From: an uncultured Lachnospira sp.
GTDB lineage: Bacteria > Bacillota > Clostridia > Lachnospirales > Lachnospiraceae
Length of the DNA: 39,452 bases
NCBI GenBank assembly: GCA_934343805.1
Contig: CAKRIN010000026.1
Span: 1 to 39,452 of the forward strand
Direction of reading: 5' to 3'
Part shown: positions 6,075 to 26,316 of the stretch, one piece after another
Layout of the letters: each line of letters opens with the position of its first letter
Numbering within the stretch: position 1 is the stretch's first letter
The notes under the pieces: model-generated
The model's input: only the letters and a program-made list of their open reading frames with translations
Databases searched by the model: none
What the model was told of the DNA's origin: nothing
Position numbers and translations under genes: made by a program

Positions 6075-8147
6075 ATGAAATTTTTCCGGAAATTAGGCTT
6101 TCAGCTCGTTTTATTTTTCATTGTTGCTATTACAATTCCGATTGTACTGCTTATGGTAAGTTCAATCACTACGACTACATCTTCAATGGAAAAAAATATG
6201 AATGTAACGAGTGAACAGACTTTGAATGAGGCACAGAAGCAATTTACGACATACTTAAAGACTTTGGCACAGCCCGTAGATTTGCTTACAAGAAAGAATG
6301 AGGTTAAGCATCTTGAGGATCAGGGAACATTAGATGATAATGTTAAGGCAGTAAAGGATTCGCTTATTGCATCTGTCAAGGTAACTAATGGAGCAGAAAG
6401 AGCATTTTTCGTTACTAATACTAAACTCGAAATCACAGGATGGGCAGAGCCTAATCCTGACACAGGAAAGACTACAAGTAAGGGTGGTCTTACTAATGGT
6501 GTAGATAAAACAAAAGAAGTGTGGTATTCAGGATGTCAGGGACTTAAGGCAAGAAACAGCATTTATTCATATTTTTCTAAGCCATATTACAGCAAGGATT
6601 TTGACACGACAATAATAACTGTAGCACAGGAAATCAAGCATTCAGATGGTACTAATTACGGAACTGTTGGTATGCATATTGATTTCTCTGAGATTACGGA
6701 TTTTGTGCAGAGTATAGGACTTCTTAATACTGGATTTGTTATTCTTGTTGATGAGGATGGTAACATTCTTGTAGATAATGATAACAACAAGTATGTAACA
6801 GATTCTGTTTCTAATCTTAAGTTCTGGAACAATATTAATGAACTTTCAGAAGAGGATTATGATAAGGCATTTTCGTTTGATGAGAACATTAATGGAGAGA
6901 ATGTACATATTGTATCATCAAAGGATGCTGTTACAGGATGGACTTTAGTTGGTTTTATAAGCTCTAAAGAAACATCTTCAACTGTTAATAAGATGATTAA
7001 TAATACTGTCATATTCAGTATAGCTGCATTTGTCATTGGTATTGCAATAGCTCTTATAGTAACAGGTTCCATGACTAAAGAAATCAAGAAGGTTTCTGGA
7101 GTTATGAAGGCTGTTGCAGGGGGAGATCTTACAGACAGAATTGAAGTTAAGAAGAAAAATGAATTTGGAGATCTCGAGAATAACTTCAATGACATGGTTG
7201 AAAATATTTCAGTACTGATTAAGGGTGTTGAGGAAAAGAGTGGAATTATTGTTGGTTCATCTGCCAAGATTGCTGGCGTTTCTAAGTCAACAACAGAGAC
7301 AGTTGGACAGGTTTCAGAGGCTATACAGAGTGTGGCTGTTGGTGCATCAGGACAGGCTGACAGTACCCAGACAGCAACTGCAGAGGTTGAGAATCTGGCT
7401 GACAGATTAAAGGAAACCAAGGCATATGTAGCAGATATAAGTGATATGTCTGTCGAGACGCAGAAGCTTAGCAATAAGGGTCTTGCGATTGTTGATGAGC
7501 TTATAACTAAGGGACAGCGTTCAATTGATAATTCTAAGACTTCTAAGACTGTTGTATCTGAGATGGTAAGCAGTATTGAGAAGATTAATTTTATATCAGA
7601 TGCTATTACAGAAATTACAGAACAGACTAACCTGTTATCACTTAATGCATCAATTGAGGCAGCAAGAGCAGGTGAAAGCGGTAAGGGATTTGCAGTAGTT
7701 GCTGATGAAATCAGAAAGCTTGCAGAGCAGTCACAGCAGTCAACTGATGAGATTAAGCAGATTGTTAATGAAATCAGTGTTAAGTCAGCACAGGTTGAGC
7801 AGACAATGGATGAATCTGTCGAGATTATAGAGGAACAGAATGTATCTATTAAGGATGCCAAGGAATTGTTCAACACAATATCTGATTCTGTTAATGCTCT
7901 TAAGGAAGGTCTTGATAACATTACTGAACTTAATGAGGCAATGGATACTAACAGAAATAATGTTGTAAGTAAGATGGAAGATGTTGCAGCAGTAGCTACT
8001 GAGACAGCAGCGGCATCAGAAGAGGTTACAGCATCAGCAGTAGATGTTGAGCAGACAATGCATGATCTTAATCAGTTCACAGTTGAGCTTGACGAAATTG
8101 CAGCTGCACTTAAAGAGGCAATTAATAAGTTTAAGCTTAATAAATAA
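6075..8147 (+). CDS. Methyl-accepting chemotaxis protein (Cache sensor)
   Basis: This transmembrane chemoreceptor would signal to CheA/CheW. The 690 residues run in the classic order: membrane segment at about 7-30, a ~275-residue extracellular sensor that looks like a double Cache domain, a second membrane segment at about 310-332, a HAMP linker (about 333-385) and a long coiled-coil signalling domain. The conserved hairpin tip is at about 515-555 ([19 protein letters not shown], then [16 protein letters not shown]). The ligand is unknown; Cache sensors often bind amino acids or other small metabolites. AGGAGGG precedes the start. The gene stands alone between an HD-GYP unit and a tRNA and ends at a strong terminator. 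Confidence 0.95.
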
Positions 8148-12696: not shown

Positions 12697-12767
12697 GATG
12701 GGATAAAAGAGGGATGTCCCACAGATTCGTGTAATGATGACAGTATAATAATATAATGGAGGATTTT

Positions 12768-14699
12768 ATGAAGAATATGCAAAAGTACGAGCAGGTTGCA
12801 ATAACAGAATTAGATGCATATCTTTTTGGACAGGGAACTCATTATGAGATATATAATAAAATGGGGGCGCATGTTGTAGAAAAGGATGGAACAGAAGGGG
12901 TATATTTTGCAGTCTGGGCACCTGCAGCAAGAGAAGTATATGTTATAGGAGAATTCAATAACTGGAATGCTTATGGCTATGATATGAAGAAGATATCAGA
13001 TGGAGGAATATACGAATTATTTATTCCGGGAGCTAAGGCTGGTGATATGTATAAGTATCTTATTATATCGCAAAGCGCAGATGCACTTTATAAGGCTGAT
13101 CCATATGCTAATGCAGCACAGTTAAGACCGGAGACAGCGTCAGTTGTTGCAGATTTGTCTGGATACAGTTGGAAAGATTCCAAATGGGTCGAGAAGAAGA
13201 AAAAGGAAGATCATCTTAAGGCTCCTTTATCAATATATGAATGTCATCTTGGATCATGGAAGAAAAAGGATGATGGGACAGAGGATGGATTTTATAATTA
13301 CAGGGAGATAGCTCCAGAGCTTGCAGAGTATGTAACAGATATGGGATATACTCATATTGAGCTTATGGGAATTGCTGAATATCCATTTGATGGTTCGTGG
13401 GGATATCAGGTAACAGGTTATTATGCGCCAACAGCAAGATATGGAACACCACAGGACTTCATGTATTTTGTTGATTATATGCATGAAAAGGGTATAGGAG
13501 TAATACTTGACTGGGTTCCGGCTCATTTTCCAAAGGATGCACATGGACTTGCCAACTTTGATGGAAGCTGTGTATATGAGTATGCTGATCCAAGAAAAGG
13601 TGAGCATCCTGACTGGGGAACGAAGGTATTTGATTATTCTAAGAATGAAGTATCCAATTTCCTTATAGCTAACGGAATGTACTGGGTAGATAAGTTCCAT
13701 ATTGATGGATTAAGAGTTGATGCAGTTGCTTCAATGCTTTATCTTGATTATGGAAGAAGTGACGGCAACTGGGTTCCTAACCAGTATGGTGGTAATGGTA
13801 ATCTTGAAGCTATGAGCTTTTTGAAGCATTTTAACAGTATGTTAAAGAAAAGATTTCCACAGGCCATAACGATTGCAGAGGAGTCTACAGCATGGCCTAT
13901 GGTAAGTGGAGATCCTGATAATGGAGATTGTCTCGGGTTCACATTTAAGTGGAATATGGGATGGATGCATGATTTTCTTGAATATATGAAGCTTGATCCA
14001 TATTTTAGAAAGTTCAATCATGGCAAGATGACATTTTCATTAATGTATGCTTACAGCGAGAATTTCATACTTGTACTTTCACATGATGAGGTGGTTCATC
14101 TTAAGTGTTCAATGCTTGGAAAGATGCCGGGAGACAGGGAAGATAAGTTTAAGAATCTTAAGCTTGCATATGCATATATGTGTGGACATCCAGGTAAGAA
14201 GCTTTTGTTCATGGGACAGGAATTCGGACAGTGGAATGAATGGAGTGAGAAGAGAGCACTTGACTGGTATCTTCTGGAGGATGAAAGCCACAGTGAGTTA
14301 AAGGATTTTACGAAGAAGTGTCTGCATCTTAATAAAGAATATCCTTGTCTGTATGCTACAGATTATACAAGTGATGGATTCAGATGGATTAATGCTAATG
14401 ATAAGGATAACAGTGTATTCTCATTTATAAGGATTAGTCCTGACGGAAAGAAGAATCTGCTCTTTGTTCTTAATTTCACACCAGTGGAAAGGGACAGCTT
14501 CAGAGTAGGTGTACCATTCAAGACTAAATATAAGCTTGTTCTTGGTGATGATGAAGCTAATCAGAAGAAGACACTTACGGCTGTTGATGGAGATTGTGAT
14601 GGATATACACAGTCATTGCTCGTAGATCTTCACAAGTATGGAATAGCTGTATATGAGTTTAACGGAGACGTGTCTAAGGTTGAGGCATGGGAGATATAA
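12768..14699 (+). CDS. glgB: 1,4-alpha-glucan branching enzyme GlgB
   Basis: GlgB adds alpha-1,6 branches to glycogen. The 643-residue protein has an N-terminal CBM48 domain (about 30-115, FAVWAPAAREVYVIGEFNNW) and a GH13 barrel. The nucleophile is D318 (GLRVDAV), the acid/base E371 (TIAEES) and the transition-state aspartate D440 (LSHDEV). A C-terminal all-beta domain closes it. Length is usual for the short Gram-positive type. An ATG exists at 12756, but GGAGG (12758-12762) overlaps it and is 5 bases before 12768, so 12768 is the start. No other glycogen gene is adjacent; the gene has its own promoter and terminator. Confidence 0.96.
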   Translation: MKNMQKYEQVAITELDAYLFGQGTHYEIYNKMGAHVVEKDGTEGVYFAVWAPAAREVYVIGEFNNWNAYGYDMKKISDGGIYELFIPGAKAGDMYKYLIISQSADALYKADPYANAAQLRPETASVVADLSGYSWKDSKWVEKKKKEDHLKAPLSIYECHLGSWKKKDDGTEDGFYNYREIAPELAEYVTDMGYTHIELMGIAEYPFDGSWGYQVTGYYAPTARYGTPQDFMYFVDYMHEKGIGVILDWVPAHFPKDAHGLANFDGSCVYEYADPRKGEHPDWGTKVFDYSKNEVSNFLIANGMYWVDKFHIDGLRVDAVASMLYLDYGRSDGNWVPNQYGGNGNLEAMSFLKHFNSMLKKRFPQAITIAEESTAWPMVSGDPDNGDCLGFTFKWNMGWMHDFLEYMKLDPYFRKFNHGKMTFSLMYAYSENFILVLSHDEVVHLKCSMLGKMPGDREDKFKNLKLAYAYMCGHPGKKLLFMGQEFGQWNEWSEKRALDWYLLEDESHSELKDFTKKCLHLNKEYPCLYATDYTSDGFRWINANDKDNSVFSFIRISPDGKKNLLFVLNFTPVERDSFRVGVPFKTKYKLVLGDDEANQKKTLTAVDGDCDGYTQSLLVDLHKYGIAVYEFNGDVSKVEAWEI

Positions 14700-14716
14700 T
14701 ATAATACATAATAAGC

Positions 14717-14760
14717 AGGGGTTGGCGAACTAAGAAAATAGTGCGTCAGCCCCTTTTCTT
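14717..14760 (+). terminator. glgB terminator
   Basis: GGGGTTGGCG pairs with CGTCAGCCCC over ten base pairs (two G-T), then TTTTCTTT. It isolates glgB from the flagellar block. Confidence 0.85.
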
Positions 14761-14785
14761 TATGAGGGCATTGTAAAAGTCTGGT

Positions 14786-14812
14786 TAATTATTAAGAAAA
14801 ATTTGCCGAAAT
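14786..14812 (+). promoter_or_regulatory. Sigma-D (flagellar) promoter
   Basis: TAAT (14786-14789), exactly 15 bases, then GCCGAAAT (14805-14812). The Bacillus/clostridial sigma-D consensus is TAAA-N15-GCCGATAT, so 10 of 12 positions match. It lies ~40 bases before the start at 14854 and overlaps the TTG at 14803, arguing against that longer start. Confidence 0.8.
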
Positions 14813-14853
14813 ATTTAATACATGATAGTGAAAGTGATATAAAGGAGCTTGAT

Positions 14854-17784
14854 ATGACATATACAGTTTCAGGTGCTAACTTTAACCAGCAGGATAATGC
14901 CGTTAAAGGAACATCAATTAATTATAAAGAGAATAAAACTACAGAAAGCAAAACGGGTACAGTTGAAAATGCTTTTGCAGGTGTTGTAATGTCGGCGGGT
15001 GGGAAGCCTGTAGATAATACATATGAAAGTCTGTTAAAAGAAGCAGATGACGTGAAGAACCAGATTATGAATAGTGCATCAGGAGCAAAGCTTGGATTGA
15101 AAGCTCTCATGATGAAGCTGTCAGGTGCAGATGCAGTTAAGATAGATGAGGATGGATTCAACCTGACAGATGCCACAGATGACGACATGGTTAATATTGT
15201 TGAAAAAATAAAAATAGAACTTGCTATGCATAGTGATGACTATGTATCTTATGGTACATCTGTATCCAGAGATAAGATTGAAAGTGTCGCAGGTAATGCT
15301 GGTGCTGCAAACAGGATAGAACAGAAGATGTCCGGGGCAGATATTGCAGTTAATGATGATTCTATAAGAGAAGTAAGCAATGCAGTTGATATGGCACAGA
15401 ATTTAAAACCAATGAGTGAAGACACTAAGGCTTATATGGTCGCCAACAATATTGTGCCTACAATTGCCGGAATATATCAGGCACAGTCAGCCACCATATC
15501 TGGATATGGCATGGGTGCCGCAACAGATGAGGCAATATCTGATGAGGATTTTGAAAAGCTCAGACAAGGAATAGAAAAAATAATTAATGATGCAGGGCTT
15601 GAGGTTAACGAAGATAATATTAATAATGCAAGAATGTTTATTGATAAACAGATTCCTGTAACTGCAGATAATCTGAGTTATAAAGCGAAATTAGACAGTC
15701 TGGATATTGAAGAGACAGTTAATGATACGGATGCTGTTCTTGATAAAATATTTGAATATATGAAGCTTGGTAAAAGAGCAGAGGATACTGATATTACGGG
15801 TTCTGATATGGATGATATTATTACAGCATTTAATACTCTTGAAAATGCAACATATGAGGACGTCGCTAATGTATTATCAAAGGGAAATGTGTTTACAATT
15901 GCAAGCCTGAAGCTGGAATTAGATGCAAGAGTATTTAACCCGGATTACAGCAATGTACAAGAGATGACTGTTGACAAAGAAGCAGTAGATAAAGAAAACA
16001 TTGATGAGGCATATGATACATTTATTGAGACAAGAGTTCTTATGAGTACTGGTGCAGCTGCATATCTTGTCAATAATAATATATCTGTTCTTACAACTCC
16101 AATGGAAGAGCTTAATGATATCATAAAAGATTATGAGAAGAGCTCATATGCATATGGAATGTCATATGAAGAGGTACTTGATATAAGGAAAATGTTTGAC
16201 CAGACAATGCGTAATCCGGCAAGGGTATTCTCTATGATGTATGAAAAGGCAGCAGATACATATGAAGCTGTTGGAACACAGGTAAGGGCTGATCTTGGGG
16301 ATTCACTTAAGAAAGCAGTAGACAGAAGTGCAGATGATATTATTGATGAGCTTGGACTTGAAGGTACGAAAAACGACAGAAGGGCAATAAATGTACTTGC
16401 AGCCAATGGAATGGAGATTACACCAGATAATATTGAAAAGATTAAAACAGTTAATGCTGTTATAGACAATCTTGTAAAGAATATGAAACCAGAGACTGTC
16501 CTTAATATGATAAAAGACGGCATTAATCCTATGAAAGCGGATATTGATGATGTTAATGAATATCTTACTACTATGAATCAGAATGCAACAAAGGATAATG
16601 AGGAGAAGTTTTCTAAGTTTTTGTACAAGCTTGATCGTACTGATGGCATAACAAAAGAGCAGAGAAAACAGTTCATAGGAATATATCAGATGATGAACAT
16701 ATTCACAAAGGATGCCGGTGTAGCAGCAGGAGCACTTGTGAAACAGGGGACAGAAGTAACGATGAGCAATCTTATAAGTGCTTATAACTCCAGAAAACAT
16801 TATGACATGGATGTAACTATAGATGATAATACCGGACTGGCACAGGTACGGGGAACAGCCAATTATTACATGGCATTGTTTTCAACAAATGGTGCATTAA
16901 TAACACCTAATACTCTTAAAAATGTTGATAACAATACCGGAATAGGCAGCCAGTCTGTGGAAAACTTTCTTGATCAGATTGAGGAATATTATGACGCCCG
17001 TGAAGAAGCCAGATATTATGAAGAGTATATCGATGTACAGGTGGCAGCAGCCGAGGCTGATGCTAATATACTGCGGGAGATAAGAAAGTCAGATATGGAT
17101 GTTAATACCGGAAACATACAGGCCGTAAAAGAATTTATGGAGTCAGGACAATTCCCTTATATAAAAGGCAAAAAAACATTAAAAGATTATGCAGAGAATT
17201 CCATTGAAAAAATCGGACATAAAGAAAAATTGTCATTAATGTATGATGAGATGAAAGATGAAGTCGAAGAAGAGCTTCAGGAGGCAGTATCCAGATCAGG
17301 AGATCTCGATACACAGATAGATATTAATTATGAGGAGTTTCTGGATCTTCGCTTAAAAGACAGAACTATTGGATATATAAAGAATCTTGCTGCAAAACAT
17401 GATTACAGAATTCCATATGCAACAGACAATGGAGATGTTGGAATGATCAGACTTACGCTTGTTCAGGACAGTGATAATGCAGGAAGAATATCTGTAAATA
17501 TGTCTAACAGTCTGTTAGGAAATGTGAGTCTGGAAGCTAAGACTGATGCGAACAGTATGAAGATACTGGTTGTTACTGACAAGGAGCTTACTTCTGAGGC
17601 GTCTGATTTAATTGATGAAATGGGAAAGCAACTCAGCACACAGTTTGAAATAGATAATATTGATATATACACAGGTAAATCAGATGATGTAAGGTATATT
17701 ACTTATGACGATGTCAGTGAAAATATTGCAACAGATAAGCTGTATCAGATGGCAGGAGTAATAGTAAAAGCACTGGCTGACTAA
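14854..17784 (+). CDS. Large flagellar-regulon repeat protein with FliK-like C-terminus
   Basis: The 976-residue, mostly helical, acidic protein has no signal peptide or membrane segment. I recall relatives named DUF6240 near flagellar genes, but the family name is uncertain. Residues ~185-770 hold at least eight degenerate units of the form (G/N)xx(V/I)TxDNIxxh, for example EVNEDNI, PVTADNL, EITPDNI, LITPNTL and DVNTGNI. Residues ~852-945 (GMIRLTL, then GRISVNM, LGNVSLEA, MKILVV) alternate beta strands and a helix, much like the C-terminal domain of the hook-length protein FliK. It starts at 14854 because AAAGGAG lies 6 bases before and the sigma-D promoter overlaps any longer start. Flagellin follows 74 bases later. 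Confidence 0.75.
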   Translation: MTYTVSGANFNQQDNAVKGTSINYKENKTTESKTGTVENAFAGVVMSAGGKPVDNTYESLLKEADDVKNQIMNSASGAKLGLKALMMKLSGADAVKIDEDGFNLTDATDDDMVNIVEKIKIELAMHSDDYVSYGTSVSRDKIESVAGNAGAANRIEQKMSGADIAVNDDSIREVSNAVDMAQNLKPMSEDTKAYMVANNIVPTIAGIYQAQSATISGYGMGAATDEAISDEDFEKLRQGIEKIINDAGLEVNEDNINNARMFIDKQIPVTADNLSYKAKLDSLDIEETVNDTDAVLDKIFEYMKLGKRAEDTDITGSDMDDIITAFNTLENATYEDVANVLSKGNVFTIASLKLELDARVFNPDYSNVQEMTVDKEAVDKENIDEAYDTFIETRVLMSTGAAAYLVNNNISVLTTPMEELNDIIKDYEKSSYAYGMSYEEVLDIRKMFDQTMRNPARVFSMMYEKAADTYEAVGTQVRADLGDSLKKAVDRSADDIIDELGLEGTKNDRRAINVLAANGMEITPDNIEKIKTVNAVIDNLVKNMKPETVLNMIKDGINPMKADIDDVNEYLTTMNQNATKDNEEKFSKFLYKLDRTDGITKEQRKQFIGIYQMMNIFTKDAGVAAGALVKQGTEVTMSNLISAYNSRKHYDMDVTIDDNTGLAQVRGTANYYMALFSTNGALITPNTLKNVDNNTGIGSQSVENFLDQIEEYYDAREEARYYEEYIDVQVAAAEADANILREIRKSDMDVNTGNIQAVKEFMESGQFPYIKGKKTLKDYAENSIEKIGHKEKLSLMYDEMKDEVEEELQEAVSRSGDLDTQIDINYEEFLDLRLKDRTIGYIKNLAAKHDYRIPYATDNGDVGMIRLTLVQDSDNAGRISVNMSNSLLGNVSLEAKTDANSMKILVVTDKELTSEASDLIDEMGKQLSTQFEIDNIDIYTGKSDDVRYITYDDVSENIATDKLYQMAGVIVKALAD

Positions 17785-17808
17785 AGATTTGTGATATATT
17801 TCCGATAT
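17782..17808 (+). promoter_or_regulatory. Sigma-D promoter of flagellin
   Basis: TAAA (17782-17785), exactly 15 bases, then TCCGATAT (17801-17808), 11 of 12 consensus positions. The TAAA box contains the TAA stop of the preceding gene. The start point would be about 40 bases before the flagellin ribosome site. Confidence 0.88.
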
Positions 17809-17858: not shown

Positions 17859-19406
17859 ATGAGAATAGGAACAAATGTTGCTGCGATTGTAGCTAATAAT
17901 TCATTACAAAAGTCACAGAATAATCTTTCAACATCAATAGAGAGATTATCATCTGGTTATAAGATTAATGGGTCAAAGGATGATCCTGCCGGATGTGCAA
18001 TTTCTGAAAAAATGCGTATGCAGATAAGGGGACTTGGTCAGGCACAGAATAATACAGCAGATGGAGTATCAGTAATAAGTACAGCAGAAGGTGCTATTAA
18101 TGAGATCCAGAGTATGCTTACAAGATTAAAGGAGCTTAGTGTACAGGCTGCCAATGATGTTAATTCGGATGAAGAGCGTGAAGCTGTACAGAAGGAGATT
18201 GATCAGATTAATAAAGAGATAGACAGAATATCTGATGAGACAGAATTTAATACGCAGTCGCTTATTAATGGTAATCTTTCAAGAAGAGTATATTCTGATC
18301 TTCAGGGAGTTAACCAGTTATCTGTTTCGGATAATTACACTGCCGGAATATATTCGGTTACAGTTACAGAAGATGCAAGACAGGCAATTGCAACCGGTTC
18401 AGGTGCGATTACAATGTCGGATACTGCAAAGATAACAGATGATCAGGCAGGAGCAATAAGCATTAATGGCTATAAAATTGAAATAAAAGAGGGAGATACT
18501 CTTGATATAGTAATGGGTAAGATTATTGATGGAGTTAATATGACAGGTGGATCTGCATTTACAGTCAAGAATCTTAATAATGATACAGCTGTTAATGGTA
18601 CAGAGTATGCAGGTTATGTTCCAACTGGAAGTTATGCCGGAGCAACACTTGTAATGATGACTAATCAGTATGGCAGTGACCAGAAAATGAATATTACATG
18701 CAGCAATGAGAAACTTGCTAATCTGCTTGGAATTCCTGACGCAGCAAAGGATTCAGGAATTATAGTTGAAGGAAGTGATGTTAAGGCAGAAATAGCAAGG
18801 GATGCTAAAGGTGAAAGAGTTGGATTTGCGGAATCAGCAGTTCTTTCTTCTAAAGGAACAGTGATTACAGTAACAGATGTTAATAATAAGGAATTCTCAT
18901 TAGATGTTCCTGGTAATACAGCAGGTACAGTATTTGATGATAGTAATAATAATGGTAAATCAACAGCAGGAGCTGGAACAGCAAAGACTATTAATCAGGA
19001 AGTAACAGATGTTGGTACTATGAGTATTCATGTTGGTGCTAACCAGGATCAGGTTATCATTATTGATATTCCAGAGATTACTACATATTCCCTTGGAACA
19101 GAAAATCTTAATGTTATGACACAGTATACGGCATCACAGGCAATAGCAACAGTAGATGAAGCTATTAATAAAACTAATGAAATCCGTTCAAGACTTGGCG
19201 CTTATGAAAACAGACTTGATCATACTGCAAATAATCTCCAGGTATCCGACGAGAATCTTACAAAGTCTTTGTCAGCAATGGTTGATACTGATATGGCAGA
19301 AGAGATGACAACGTATACATCAGAGACTGTTCTTACACAGGCAGCTACCTCTATATTATCACAGGCAAATGAAAGACCATCGCAGGTATTGCAGCTGTTA
19401 CAGTAA
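17859..19406 (+). CDS. hag: Flagellin
   Basis: This is the main subunit of the flagellar filament, exported by the flagellar type III system. In 515 residues both conserved ends are present: the N-terminal D0/D1 helices (MRIGTNVAAIVANNSLQKSQ, then SSGYKINGSKDDPAG and LKELSVQAAND) and the C-terminal D1/D0 helices (GAYENRLDHTANNL ... SQANERPSQVLQLLQ). The middle (about 150-410) is a beta-rich, threonine/asparagine-rich variable domain, larger than in minimal flagellins, which should form the exposed surface. The D1 segment keeps the RLKELSVQAAN pattern typical of TLR5-recognised flagellins. AGAAAGG precedes the start. It has a sigma-D promoter and is followed by its chaperone gene fliS. Confidence 0.97.
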   Translation: MRIGTNVAAIVANNSLQKSQNNLSTSIERLSSGYKINGSKDDPAGCAISEKMRMQIRGLGQAQNNTADGVSVISTAEGAINEIQSMLTRLKELSVQAANDVNSDEEREAVQKEIDQINKEIDRISDETEFNTQSLINGNLSRRVYSDLQGVNQLSVSDNYTAGIYSVTVTEDARQAIATGSGAITMSDTAKITDDQAGAISINGYKIEIKEGDTLDIVMGKIIDGVNMTGGSAFTVKNLNNDTAVNGTEYAGYVPTGSYAGATLVMMTNQYGSDQKMNITCSNEKLANLLGIPDAAKDSGIIVEGSDVKAEIARDAKGERVGFAESAVLSSKGTVITVTDVNNKEFSLDVPGNTAGTVFDDSNNNGKSTAGAGTAKTINQEVTDVGTMSIHVGANQDQVIIIDIPEITTYSLGTENLNVMTQYTASQAIATVDEAINKTNEIRSRLGAYENRLDHTANNLQVSDENLTKSLSAMVDTDMAEEMTTYTSETVLTQAATSILSQANERPSQVLQLLQ

Positions 19407-19449: not shown

Positions 19450-19920
19450 ATGACAAAAGAATCTATAAGGACATACCAGTACAGAATAACGCAGGCAACA
19501 GCATCACAGCTTGTAGTTATCCTATATGATATGGGAATAGAATATCTGAAAGATGCGTGTGACAGTGAAGATGATGTGCAGATAAGAAATAATATATATA
19601 TGGCGCAAAGGGTAGTAGACCAGTTGATAGTTGGTCTGGATATGCAGTATGAATTATCTTATAATTTATTTGTCATATATAATCATATTAAGAGAACTCT
19701 TATATCTGCGGCAGTAAGTAAAGATAAGTCAGAGTTAAACAGAGTATCAGGACTTATGGCTAAGCTTAGAAAGTCGTTTTATGAAGTGAGCAGACAGGAT
19801 ACATCTCAGCCATTAATGAAAAATACACAGACGATATATGCAGGACTTACCTATTCCAAAGGAGGGATGGGAAACGAAACACAGACAGATACAATGATAA
19901 ACAGGGGATTCAAGGCATAG
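19450..19920 (+). CDS. fliS: Flagellin export chaperone FliS
   Basis: FliS binds the disordered C-terminus of flagellin in the cytoplasm and keeps it from polymerising before export. The 156 residues include the typical FliS helical core (about 1-118, YRITQATASQLVVILYDMGI) and a C-terminal extension containing QTIYAGLTYSKGGMGNE. The family core is ~125 residues, so this is slightly long. GGAG lies 5 bases before the start and the flagellin stop is 43 bases upstream, which fits one sigma-D transcript. Its last codons form the left arm of a strong hairpin. Confidence 0.93.
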   Translation: MTKESIRTYQYRITQATASQLVVILYDMGIEYLKDACDSEDDVQIRNNIYMAQRVVDQLIVGLDMQYELSYNLFVIYNHIKRTLISAAVSKDKSELNRVSGLMAKLRKSFYEVSRQDTSQPLMKNTQTIYAGLTYSKGGMGNETQTDTMINRGFKA

Positions 19921-19934
19921 GCCTTGAATCCCCT
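19903..19934. terminator. Hairpin overlapping the fliS stop codon
   Basis: AGGGGATTCAAGGC (19903-19916) and GCCTTGAATCCCCT (19921-19934) pair perfectly over 14 bp around ATAG. The left arm encodes the last FliS residues and the loop holds the stop. Neither strand has a strong T-run after it, so it may be a weak terminator or mainly a 3'-end stabiliser between convergent genes. Confidence 0.65.
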
Positions 19935-25540: not shown

Positions 25541-25624
25541 ATGACAGAATTAATAATAGTAATATTTGGTATAGGAATGATTATATTTAAAGGATTTGAT
25601 TTCAAGAGAAAATATATAATCTAA
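25541..25624 (+). CDS. Possible 27-residue membrane micro-protein
   Basis: The frame gives a single hydrophobic helix (MTELIIVIFGIGMIIFKG) and a basic end (FDFKRKYII). GGAGG lies 7 bases before the ATG but is fully paired in the preceding hairpin. The stop overlaps the stop of the convergent FliD-like gene by four bases. The helix-plus-basic-tail plan and the sequestered ribosome site recall small hydrophobic toxins of type I systems and other small membrane regulators. It may equally be a chance frame after a terminator, since GGAGG is explained by the stem. Confidence 0.35.
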   Translation: MTELIIVIFGIGMIIFKGFDFKRKYII

Positions 25625-26316
25625 CCTATGGAATCAAACTTACTTGCCATCAATGAATACAGATCATCTGAAGAATTGGAAGCAGCACCTGATGAAGTAT
25701 ATGAATTGGTAACATAACTGATATTGGCTTTGGCAAGAGAAGAAATATTAGTTCCAATAATGCCAAGTCTTTTAGCAAACTCTGAAGATGTTCCAAATAC
25801 TTTCTTTAATGTTTCTGTATCTGCGGCTGCAAGCTTTTTTTCATCAAGATTCAAAGTACCATCTTCTTTCAGAGTGATACCAACTGATGCCAGTGCCTCA
25901 GAATTTTCTTTGGCAGCTTCTTTTAACATGTCCTGACATATTGTATTTACTGAACTTGATGTTTTTTCAAGAGTGTTATAAAGATTATTATAAGAGTTAA
26001 CTAAAGATTTTATATCTGAATAAACACCAGAGTAATCACCAGTCTTTTCTGCACTATCAAAGAGTTTTGAATTAGTGTCTGTAAATTTGCCTGAGCTCTT
26101 AGAAAGAGAATCGGCATTTTCCTTAATATCCTCATATGCGTTTTTTTGCAGCTTTTTAGTTAAAGATGATGTAGAAGCGTCTGTCTTGCTGGTCAGAAGA
26201 CTTGTAAGGCTGTCATTGTCATCGTTCTTAATATAATCCAGTAATGTTTTGGATGATGATGGGTCAATTCCTGCACTAAGCTGGTTAGTGGCTAACATTT
26301 GAGATGTAACACGCAT
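25621..26316 (-). CDS. FliD-like small protein of the flagellar regulon
   Basis: The 231-residue serine-rich, helical protein has no signal peptide. It begins MRVTSQMLA, like the start of the hook-filament protein FlgL. Residues ~101-185 read like the C-terminal part of the filament cap FliD: VNSYNNLYNTL, then ALASVGITLKEDGTLNLDEK, KKVFG and EFAKRL. It lacks the large middle domains of a normal FliD (~450-900 residues), so it is at most a mini-homologue, perhaps a secreted filament-associated or type III substrate protein. AAAGGAGGG lies 6 bases before the start, and a sigma-D promoter lies upstream, which supports a flagellar role. Confidence 0.75.
   Translation of the reverse strand: MRVTSQMLATNQLSAGIDPSSSKTLLDYIKNDDNDSLTSLLTSKTDASTSSLTKKLQKNAYEDIKENADSLSKSSGKFTDTNSKLFDSAEKTGDYSGVYSDIKSLVNSYNNLYNTLEKTSSSVNTICQDMLKEAAKENSEALASVGITLKEDGTLNLDEKKLAAADTETLKKVFGTSSEFAKRLGIIGTNISSLAKANISYVTNSYTSSGAASNSSDDLYSLMASKFDSIG

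Follow-up and report, generated by a model that had tools for sequence, protein, structure and literature searches.

A flagellin-linked DUF6240 protein of Lachnospira with a FliK-type C-terminal domain at the level of its family

Why should a long open reading frame (ORF) that lies before a flagellin gene end in a domain resembling FliK? The question is raised by a 39,452-nucleotide stretch of DNA from an uncultured Lachnospira sp. (assembly GCA_934343805.1, contig CAKRIN010000026.1, positions 1 to 39,452), called the window below. The initial annotation had described this ORF as a repeat protein with a FliK-like C-terminus and had proposed that it might measure or time something in filament export, or be a secreted structural part; the observation was borne out, and the interpretation was supported in part. 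The ORF (14854..17784; coordinates are window positions on the + strand unless stated otherwise) runs from an ATG at 14854 to a stop codon ending at 17784, with AAAGGAG at 14841-14847 upstream of the start codon, and encodes 976 amino acids (aa) with zero cysteine. Pfam places the protein in DUF6240 (PF19753; 295.9 bits, cut-off 26.6, in two stretches, the best at residues 392-640). No function is given for this family in Pfam, whose model takes in the helical module and leaves out the FliK-type end. The C-terminal domain is of a known kind; what is new is to find it in a late paralogue that is linked to flagellin, has a helical array and coexists with canonical FliK.

C-terminal domain and helical array

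The putative FliK/SctP-type core comprises residues 850-942 (17401..17679). A strand-helix pattern like that of FliK had been noted in the last ~95 residues and was recovered by structure prediction over residues 850-975, with strands at 850-856, 862-870, 878-885, 889-897 and 901-908, a helix at 914-931, a strand at 935-942 and a helix at 960-975. Among 25 family C-termini, 16 matched PF02120 (Flg_hook) at E <=0.1 (best 3e-10), and each other Pfam family listed for these 25 matches one member. A search of 41 genomes gave 15 long DUF6240 ORFs matching PF02120 at E <=0.1, 4 of which exceeded its cut-off. When family profiles were compared with the PDB, the best match was the C-domain of Salmonella FliK (2rrl, E 8e-4 and 1e-3), and hhalign scored the C-domain at 90.7% with canonical FliK and 97.1% with the YlqG-like proteins described below, three control comparisons reaching 0.1-0.2%. 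We take these profile results to indicate that the C-terminal domain is, at family level, homologous to the FliK core. Peptidase_S55, NarP-like and DUF2209 were considered as identities and dropped, the matches being weak and all below cut-off.

The likely counterpart of the FlhB-contact strand of FliK is LGNVSL at residues 888-893 (17515..17532), with V891 and L893; PMC6972891 gives Val-302 and Ile-304 as the FlhB-contact residues of Salmonella FliK. These positions were hydrophobic in the family (the first V/I in 21/25, the second V/I/L/M in 20/25), and G889 was invariant in 27 sequences. The same positions bear on the proposal that the protein is a secreted structural part, for instance a junction or channel component, its FliK-like domain being a relic export or docking signal. 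A long, helical, cysteine-poor protein that adjoins flagellin would suit such a part, but the contact positions have kept the hydrophobic character of a functional FliK core, and no flagellin, hook or cap domain was found in Pfam at E <=1; we consider it improbable.

Upstream of the C-domain the protein is predicted to be helical. An AlphaFold2 model built on 89 sequences (mean predicted local distance difference test, pLDDT, 69.7; predicted template modelling score, pTM, 0.44) laid it out as residues 1-56 without structure, 57-847 helical and 850-975 alpha/beta. The N-terminal tail (residues 1-56, 14854..15021) is predicted to be unstructured, with pLDDT <50 over residues 1-80, and carries a SINYKEN-type motif conserved in close relatives (alignment A2). 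The all-helical region (residues 57-847, 15022..17394) consists of two tandem DUF6240 modules; because of the low pTM the arrangement of the helices in the model is not to be trusted. As the N-terminal part aligned with the middle part by profile comparison (hhalign, 98.6%, E 7e-16), the region is a tandem duplication. A relative of the array among solved structures did not stand out in a search using the full-length model alone, and since the array was not folded by itself this is no evidence of a new fold.

The presence of at least eight degenerate repeat units, also claimed earlier, was confirmed. Eight V/I-T/N-xx-N-I/L units lie in 15349..17118 (residues 166, 251, 269, 347, 522, 635, 683 and 750), and the core pattern [VILMF][TN]xx[NST][ILVM] occurred in 8 copies against a shuffle mean of 1.9, none of 2000 shuffles reaching 8. 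A stricter pattern gave 2 copies in the window protein, which was not significant (P 0.12). The 89 aligned family members contained a mean of 7.0 units (range 3-12), compared with 1.9. In the genus g53 (G061, G092, G101), where each genome has five or six DUF6240 matches, some of these ORFs are enlarged to 1418-1532 aa, which suggests further module duplication.

Occurrence, flagellin partner and promoter

DUF6240 occurs only in genomes with flagellar genes. In 196 genomes of the order with a completeness >=90% (DUF6240 and flagellin draws taken as one set), DUF6240 was detected in 118 and flagellin in 137, both in 117 and neither in 58. Non-flagellated carriers, which had been named as the observation that would speak against a flagellar role, were not seen: the sole carrier among the 59 genomes without a flagellin match, G053 (220 contigs), has FlhA. 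DUF6240 was missing from twenty flagellin-positive genomes; a single family, f17, accounts for 16 of these, and one of the 20, G077, has a marginal flagellin match. Across the phylum, 4 of 249 genomes exceeded the DUF6240 cut-off, all within the window's family, and weaker matches lay in shorter ORFs.

In the window, the DUF6240 ORF sits between glgB (12756-14699) and a flagellin gene (17859..19406; MRIGTN..., 515 aa; PF00669 6e-39, PF00700 1e-22), followed by the gene for the flagellin chaperone FliS (19450..19920; 156 aa; PF02561 1.9e-16). The closest protein among the matches listed was 98% identical to the window protein. A flagellin ORF was found within ~5 kb in 35 of 40 neighbourhoods (19/20 and 16/20; 4.5 kb away in G192) and a FliS ORF in 33 (16 and 17), gene order and orientation varying; these neighbourhoods are not a random sample, as 7 of the 20 in the second batch were chosen for having no neighbouring flagellin listed. 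With best-scoring flagellin rows, 42 of 49 DUF6240-flagellin pairs on the same contig lay within 6 kb. The neighbourhoods without flagellin belonged to G030, where the contig ends, to G216, which has FliS only, and to three genomes of family f11. Seven DUF6240 neighbours were scanned in the f11 genomes G066 and G183; five matched non-flagellar families and two matched nothing. At the f11 loci L159, L160 and L162, DUF6240 is without nearby flagellin or FliS, and the genomes hold five to eight flagellin-type matches.

The adjacent flagellins were of one kind. In a 78-row tree all 33 DUF6240-adjacent flagellins fell into one group (branch 87/98), to which the window flagellin belongs. The three carriers with an unlinked gene, G216, G066 and G183, each placed one flagellin in this group, and it contained nothing else. 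Outside it lay 22 further flagellins from carrier genomes, another 9 from the unlinked carriers, and 11 from eight of the 20 DUF6240-negative genomes found. The split was also recovered at 90/98 (41 rows) and 96/98 (74 rows), a bootstrap range of 87-96%; the roots of these trees are arbitrary. The 41-row tree used all 22 loci of the first set and 18/30 of the second, and the 74-row tree 15/29 of the third, five FlgL-like rows and two duplicates being left out. Later trees added six loci, the 78-row tree left out two very long G066 rows, and 20 loci of the second and third sets (duplicates, short or weak) were not used. G189, which is without DUF6240 and has congeners that carry it, holds a very divergent short flagellin (G189:C4:179823-180185; L143, L193; 270-aa frame), near which no DUF6240, DUF6240 remnant or FliS was found.

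The gene might be a passenger of an old flagellin cluster, with a FliK-like end inactive on export and an association that reflects linkage only. The divergence of the C-domain, which is below the Pfam cut-off in the window protein, would agree with this. However, the gene is kept in 118/196 genomes, the invariant glycine and the hydrophobic contact positions are retained, and three genomes hold both genes though these are unlinked; we give the passenger only a slender chance. More than linked inheritance is argued for because these unlinked genomes keep a flagellin in the same group.

In PMC3720852, MRIN/MKIN-type flagellins form clade (a), with one per genome where present, and are assigned to sigma-28. 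Judging by N-terminal sequences, clade (a) probably corresponds to the DUF6240-linked group. The same paper describes the purified band of E. rectale A1-86 as the MVVQHN type, not the clade (a) protein, and gives three flagellins for E. eligens ATCC 27750. The genome G003 (L106, L100, L094, L101) shows E. eligens-like flagellin sizes (497, 270 and ~270-284 aa) plus a 515-aa flagellin at its DUF6240 locus.

A sigma-D promoter of its own had been ascribed to the window gene, and this held for the family and not for the window site alone. The candidate, TTAA-N16-GCCGAAAT (14785..14812), agrees at 10/12 positions with a sigma-D consensus; since 6% of 200 resampled sequences score as well, it is not significant in the window sequence alone. 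With the consensus for this bacterial group, taken from PMC3720852, the best site upstream of DUF6240 in the window scored 9/11, at a different and doubtful position. By the same consensus, 31 DUF6240 upstream regions had a mean of 9.39/11 and 142 other ORFs one of 8.37 (P 5e-9, an optimistic value because the species are related), compared with 9.66 for 32 flagellins, 8.40 for glgB and 7.95 for fliS. The late-type (sigma-D-like) signal is significant across the family and suggestive for the window gene taken singly. Separate transcription is supported by a hairpin followed by T-rich sequence after glgB (14717..14754), a probable terminator between glgB and the DUF6240 gene. The RNA fold of 14710-14768 reached -23.4 kcal/mol (z -4.24; 0/200 shuffles equally stable); this hairpin is absent from the list of the pattern scan, which allows loops of up to 8.

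The flagellin gene has a sigma-28 promoter candidate of its own (TAAA-N16-CCGATAT, 17782..17808, 11/11 matches), the -35 element of which overlaps the DUF6240 stop codon. A further hairpin, possibly a terminator, lies at the fliS end (19903..19934, no strand assigned; -26.5 kcal/mol, z -6.57) and appears in the pattern scan as a minus-strand entry alone. Elsewhere in the window, a stand-alone ORF of 231 aa (25621-26316, - strand) matched the FliD C-terminal domain (4.5e-8) and the helical domain of FlgK, and looks short for a cap protein. The region that holds the flagellin cluster also has a chemoreceptor (Cache, HAMP and MCP signal domains; 1 cysteine in 690 residues) at 6075-8147.

Other FliK-type proteins in the same genomes

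The initial annotation had pointed to a second, late FliK-like protein, and a canonical fliK was indeed found elsewhere. In G001, the nearest relative examined, it lies in the hook operon among FliG, FliI, FlgD, an FlgE-type protein and MotA, so that the window protein is an additional FliK-type protein, and a late one. Canonical-type FliK matches (E 1.5e-14 or better, frames 438-546 aa) were present in 31 of the 33 carriers among the 41 genomes. The DUF6240 protein shares with FliK (PF02120; 2rrl) the C-terminal core as seen by family profile, the LG-x-V/I-x-hydrophobic FlhB-contact strand and the poverty in cysteine. It differs in length (976 aa for the window protein, 393-546 aa open frames for canonical-type matches in relatives), in having a helical repeat array instead of the ruler region, and in coexisting with canonical FliK. 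Whereas FliK is an early gene of the hook operon, DUF6240 stands at the flagellin-FliS locus with a late-type family promoter signal. The SctP rulers of injectisomes (YscP, PscP; switch domain 5cuk) differ from DUF6240 in setting, which here is flagellar.

The protein could also be a redundant or replacement controller of hook length, acting at the hook stage despite its position and with canonical FliK as backup. Its FliK-type core would fit, as would the N-terminal layout of close relatives, which resembles that of rod and hook substrates; set against the canonical fliK in the hook operon of G001, the strong canonical-type matches in nearly all carriers, and a promoter and position that are late, we consider this very improbable. 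At least one DUF6240 member (P0139) is already labelled flagellar hook-length protein by automated naming.

A second FliK-C class was detected at 16 loci, with frames of 434-651 aa that share V-T-x-N-I helical units and the FliK-C end. By a simple pattern, an FlhB-C-like ORF (86-128 aa) adjoins it in 12/16 loci; in G001 this partner was confirmed as PF01312 (2e-20), with an RbgA-type GTPase nearby. We call the class YlqG-like and its partner YlqH-like, borrowing these names and that of RbgA from Bacillus subtilis. Comparison with DUF6240 by hhalign gave 93.0% over 97 columns for the helical part, in addition to the C-domain score above, and the N-terminal beta domain that 15/89 DUF6240 sequences (picked by pattern) possess matched the YlqG-like one at 93.9%. 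By sequence comparison the two families are of common descent over three modules, which stand in the same order; the N-terminal one occurs only in some DUF6240 members and is missing from the window protein. DUF6240 is best regarded as a paralogue of the YlqG-like family that has been duplicated and enlarged.

The two families have in common the V-T-x-N-I helical units and the FliK-type C-domain, and differ in that DUF6240 is about twice as long, has its helical module duplicated and has flagellin and FliS as neighbours. The window protein, without the beta domain, has an N-terminus predicted to be unstructured, and no FlhB-C partner was found beside its gene, the neighbours of which are glgB, flagellin and fliS. 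Of eight DUF6240-negative flagellated genomes checked, G189 had two FliK-C matches and seven (G041, G069, G107, G111, G114, G128, G186) a single one; the second FliK-C class may therefore be missing together with DUF6240. In one paper that names it, YlqG is an entry in a mutation list.

Export and a possible late switch

With 0 cysteines in 976 residues, the window protein departs from the 13.2 that the cysteine content of 17 other proteins of the window would predict (Poisson 2e-6). Cysteines per 1000 residues amounted to 2.7 in the DUF6240 family, where 14/89 members are without any, 3.1 in flagellin-type proteins, 1.0 in canonical FliK and 1.6 in YlqG-like proteins, compared with 12.0 in GlgB and 9.9 in FliS. 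Such depletion would fit a protein that passes the flagellar channel. The gate-recognition motif has the form F-xxx-hydrophobic, and FAGVV at residues 41-45 (14974..14988) is a possible, speculative motif of this FlhB-recognition type, its F being kept in 15/16 close relatives (alignment A2). The N-termini of these relatives begin with small non-polar residues and have F-xx-VV >30 residues in, a layout resembling the rod/hook substrate signal in PMC8983047. As a family trait the motif was rejected, since at most 39/89 members have one at residues 30-110.

The same data bear on the main rival explanation, a cytoplasmic export pilot or chaperone that is never secreted, its array holding the linked flagellin or a FliS-flagellin complex and its FliK-like end docking on FlhB. 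A large predicted helical array, a gene neighbourhood with flagellin and FliS (with only FliS in G216) and an association with one flagellin group are what such a pilot would show, but the cysteine content is like that of exported axial proteins and unlike that of FliS or GlgB, the N-terminus has no predicted structure, and known flagellar chaperones are small. We judge the pilot unlikely.

The best reading is a secreted FliK/SctP-type export-switch protein acting in the filament phase, which we put forward tentatively, as not far from probable. From the C-domain we infer binding to FlhB, from the cysteine poverty secretion, and from the flagellin grouping service to one flagellin; the switching itself is proposed on these grounds. 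The DUF6240 protein would be made together with its flagellin under sigma-D and would enter the flagellar export channel with its N-terminus leading. Its C-domain would then touch the cytoplasmic part of FlhB, or an FlhB-C paralogue, and set the accepted cargo during export of that flagellin. Canonical FliK would keep the hook-to-filament switch, and the DUF6240 protein would make or hold a later one.

A bolder form, which we regard as quite improbable, is a second ruler-and-switch step within the filament phase. Here the late, secreted, helical FliK-type protein would measure or time how one flagellin lineage is exported and would afterwards re-set FlhB, so that a proximal piece of that flagellin precedes other flagellins, or the export rate is altered. 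The helical part of 791 residues, at the usual 0.15 nm per residue, would span ~119 nm if it passed the channel as a helix; PMC6972891 gives ~90 nm (35 + 55 nm) for rod plus hook in Salmonella.

Several results weigh against a secreted late switch. The family-level similarity to FliK was not matched by the window protein alone, which reached E 0.092 with PF02120, below its cut-off; single-sequence hmmscan, NCBIfam and phmmer-to-PDB searches with it gave no above-cut-off FliK match and no solved chain. The best Pfam match of its C-domain alone was the SpoIVB peptidase S55 (E 5e-4, below cut-off, 1/25 members). With the broader, gappier alignment A4 (89 rows: the window protein, 68/240 listed proteins and 20/21 loci), the FliK match weakened to E 0.019 and ranked directly after a designed helical bundle. 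As to a structural match, Foldseek found none at E 0.001 or better with either model, and in ranks obtained with the isolated C-domain structure the switch domain (including PscP 5cuk) tied with unrelated folds. The folded helical array, as modelled, would differ from a classical ruler. Cysteine poverty is unspecific, since the chemoreceptor of the window has a single cysteine as well, and over the last 110 residues the family average rises to 5.7 per 1000. Vertical inheritance of a linked cluster could account for the flagellin association, and much of the pattern is explained by such linkage. The divergent G189 flagellin, from a genome without DUF6240, fell outside the linked group as a full frame, on a branch so long that its placement is unsure, and inside it as a row lacking the N-terminus. 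In G024 the linked flagellin is the sole flagellin match, so switching between flagellins cannot be the general role of DUF6240, and a general switch of that kind is weakened as an idea.

No open-access paper on DUF6240 was found, and open-access searches for a second FliK, FliK-like proteins, FliK in Lachnospiraceae and filament-length rulers gave no title or beginning of an abstract concerning the DUF6240 protein. The textbook example of an export gate in the flagellum that switches once, and early, is FliK. In this order of gut bacteria, over half of the genomes sampled encode a further FliK-type protein, which is late, about twice as long, built on a helical array and associated with one flagellin group. 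If the DUF6240 protein acts on FlhB, the export gate would be set more than once, which is testable in motile gut commensals.

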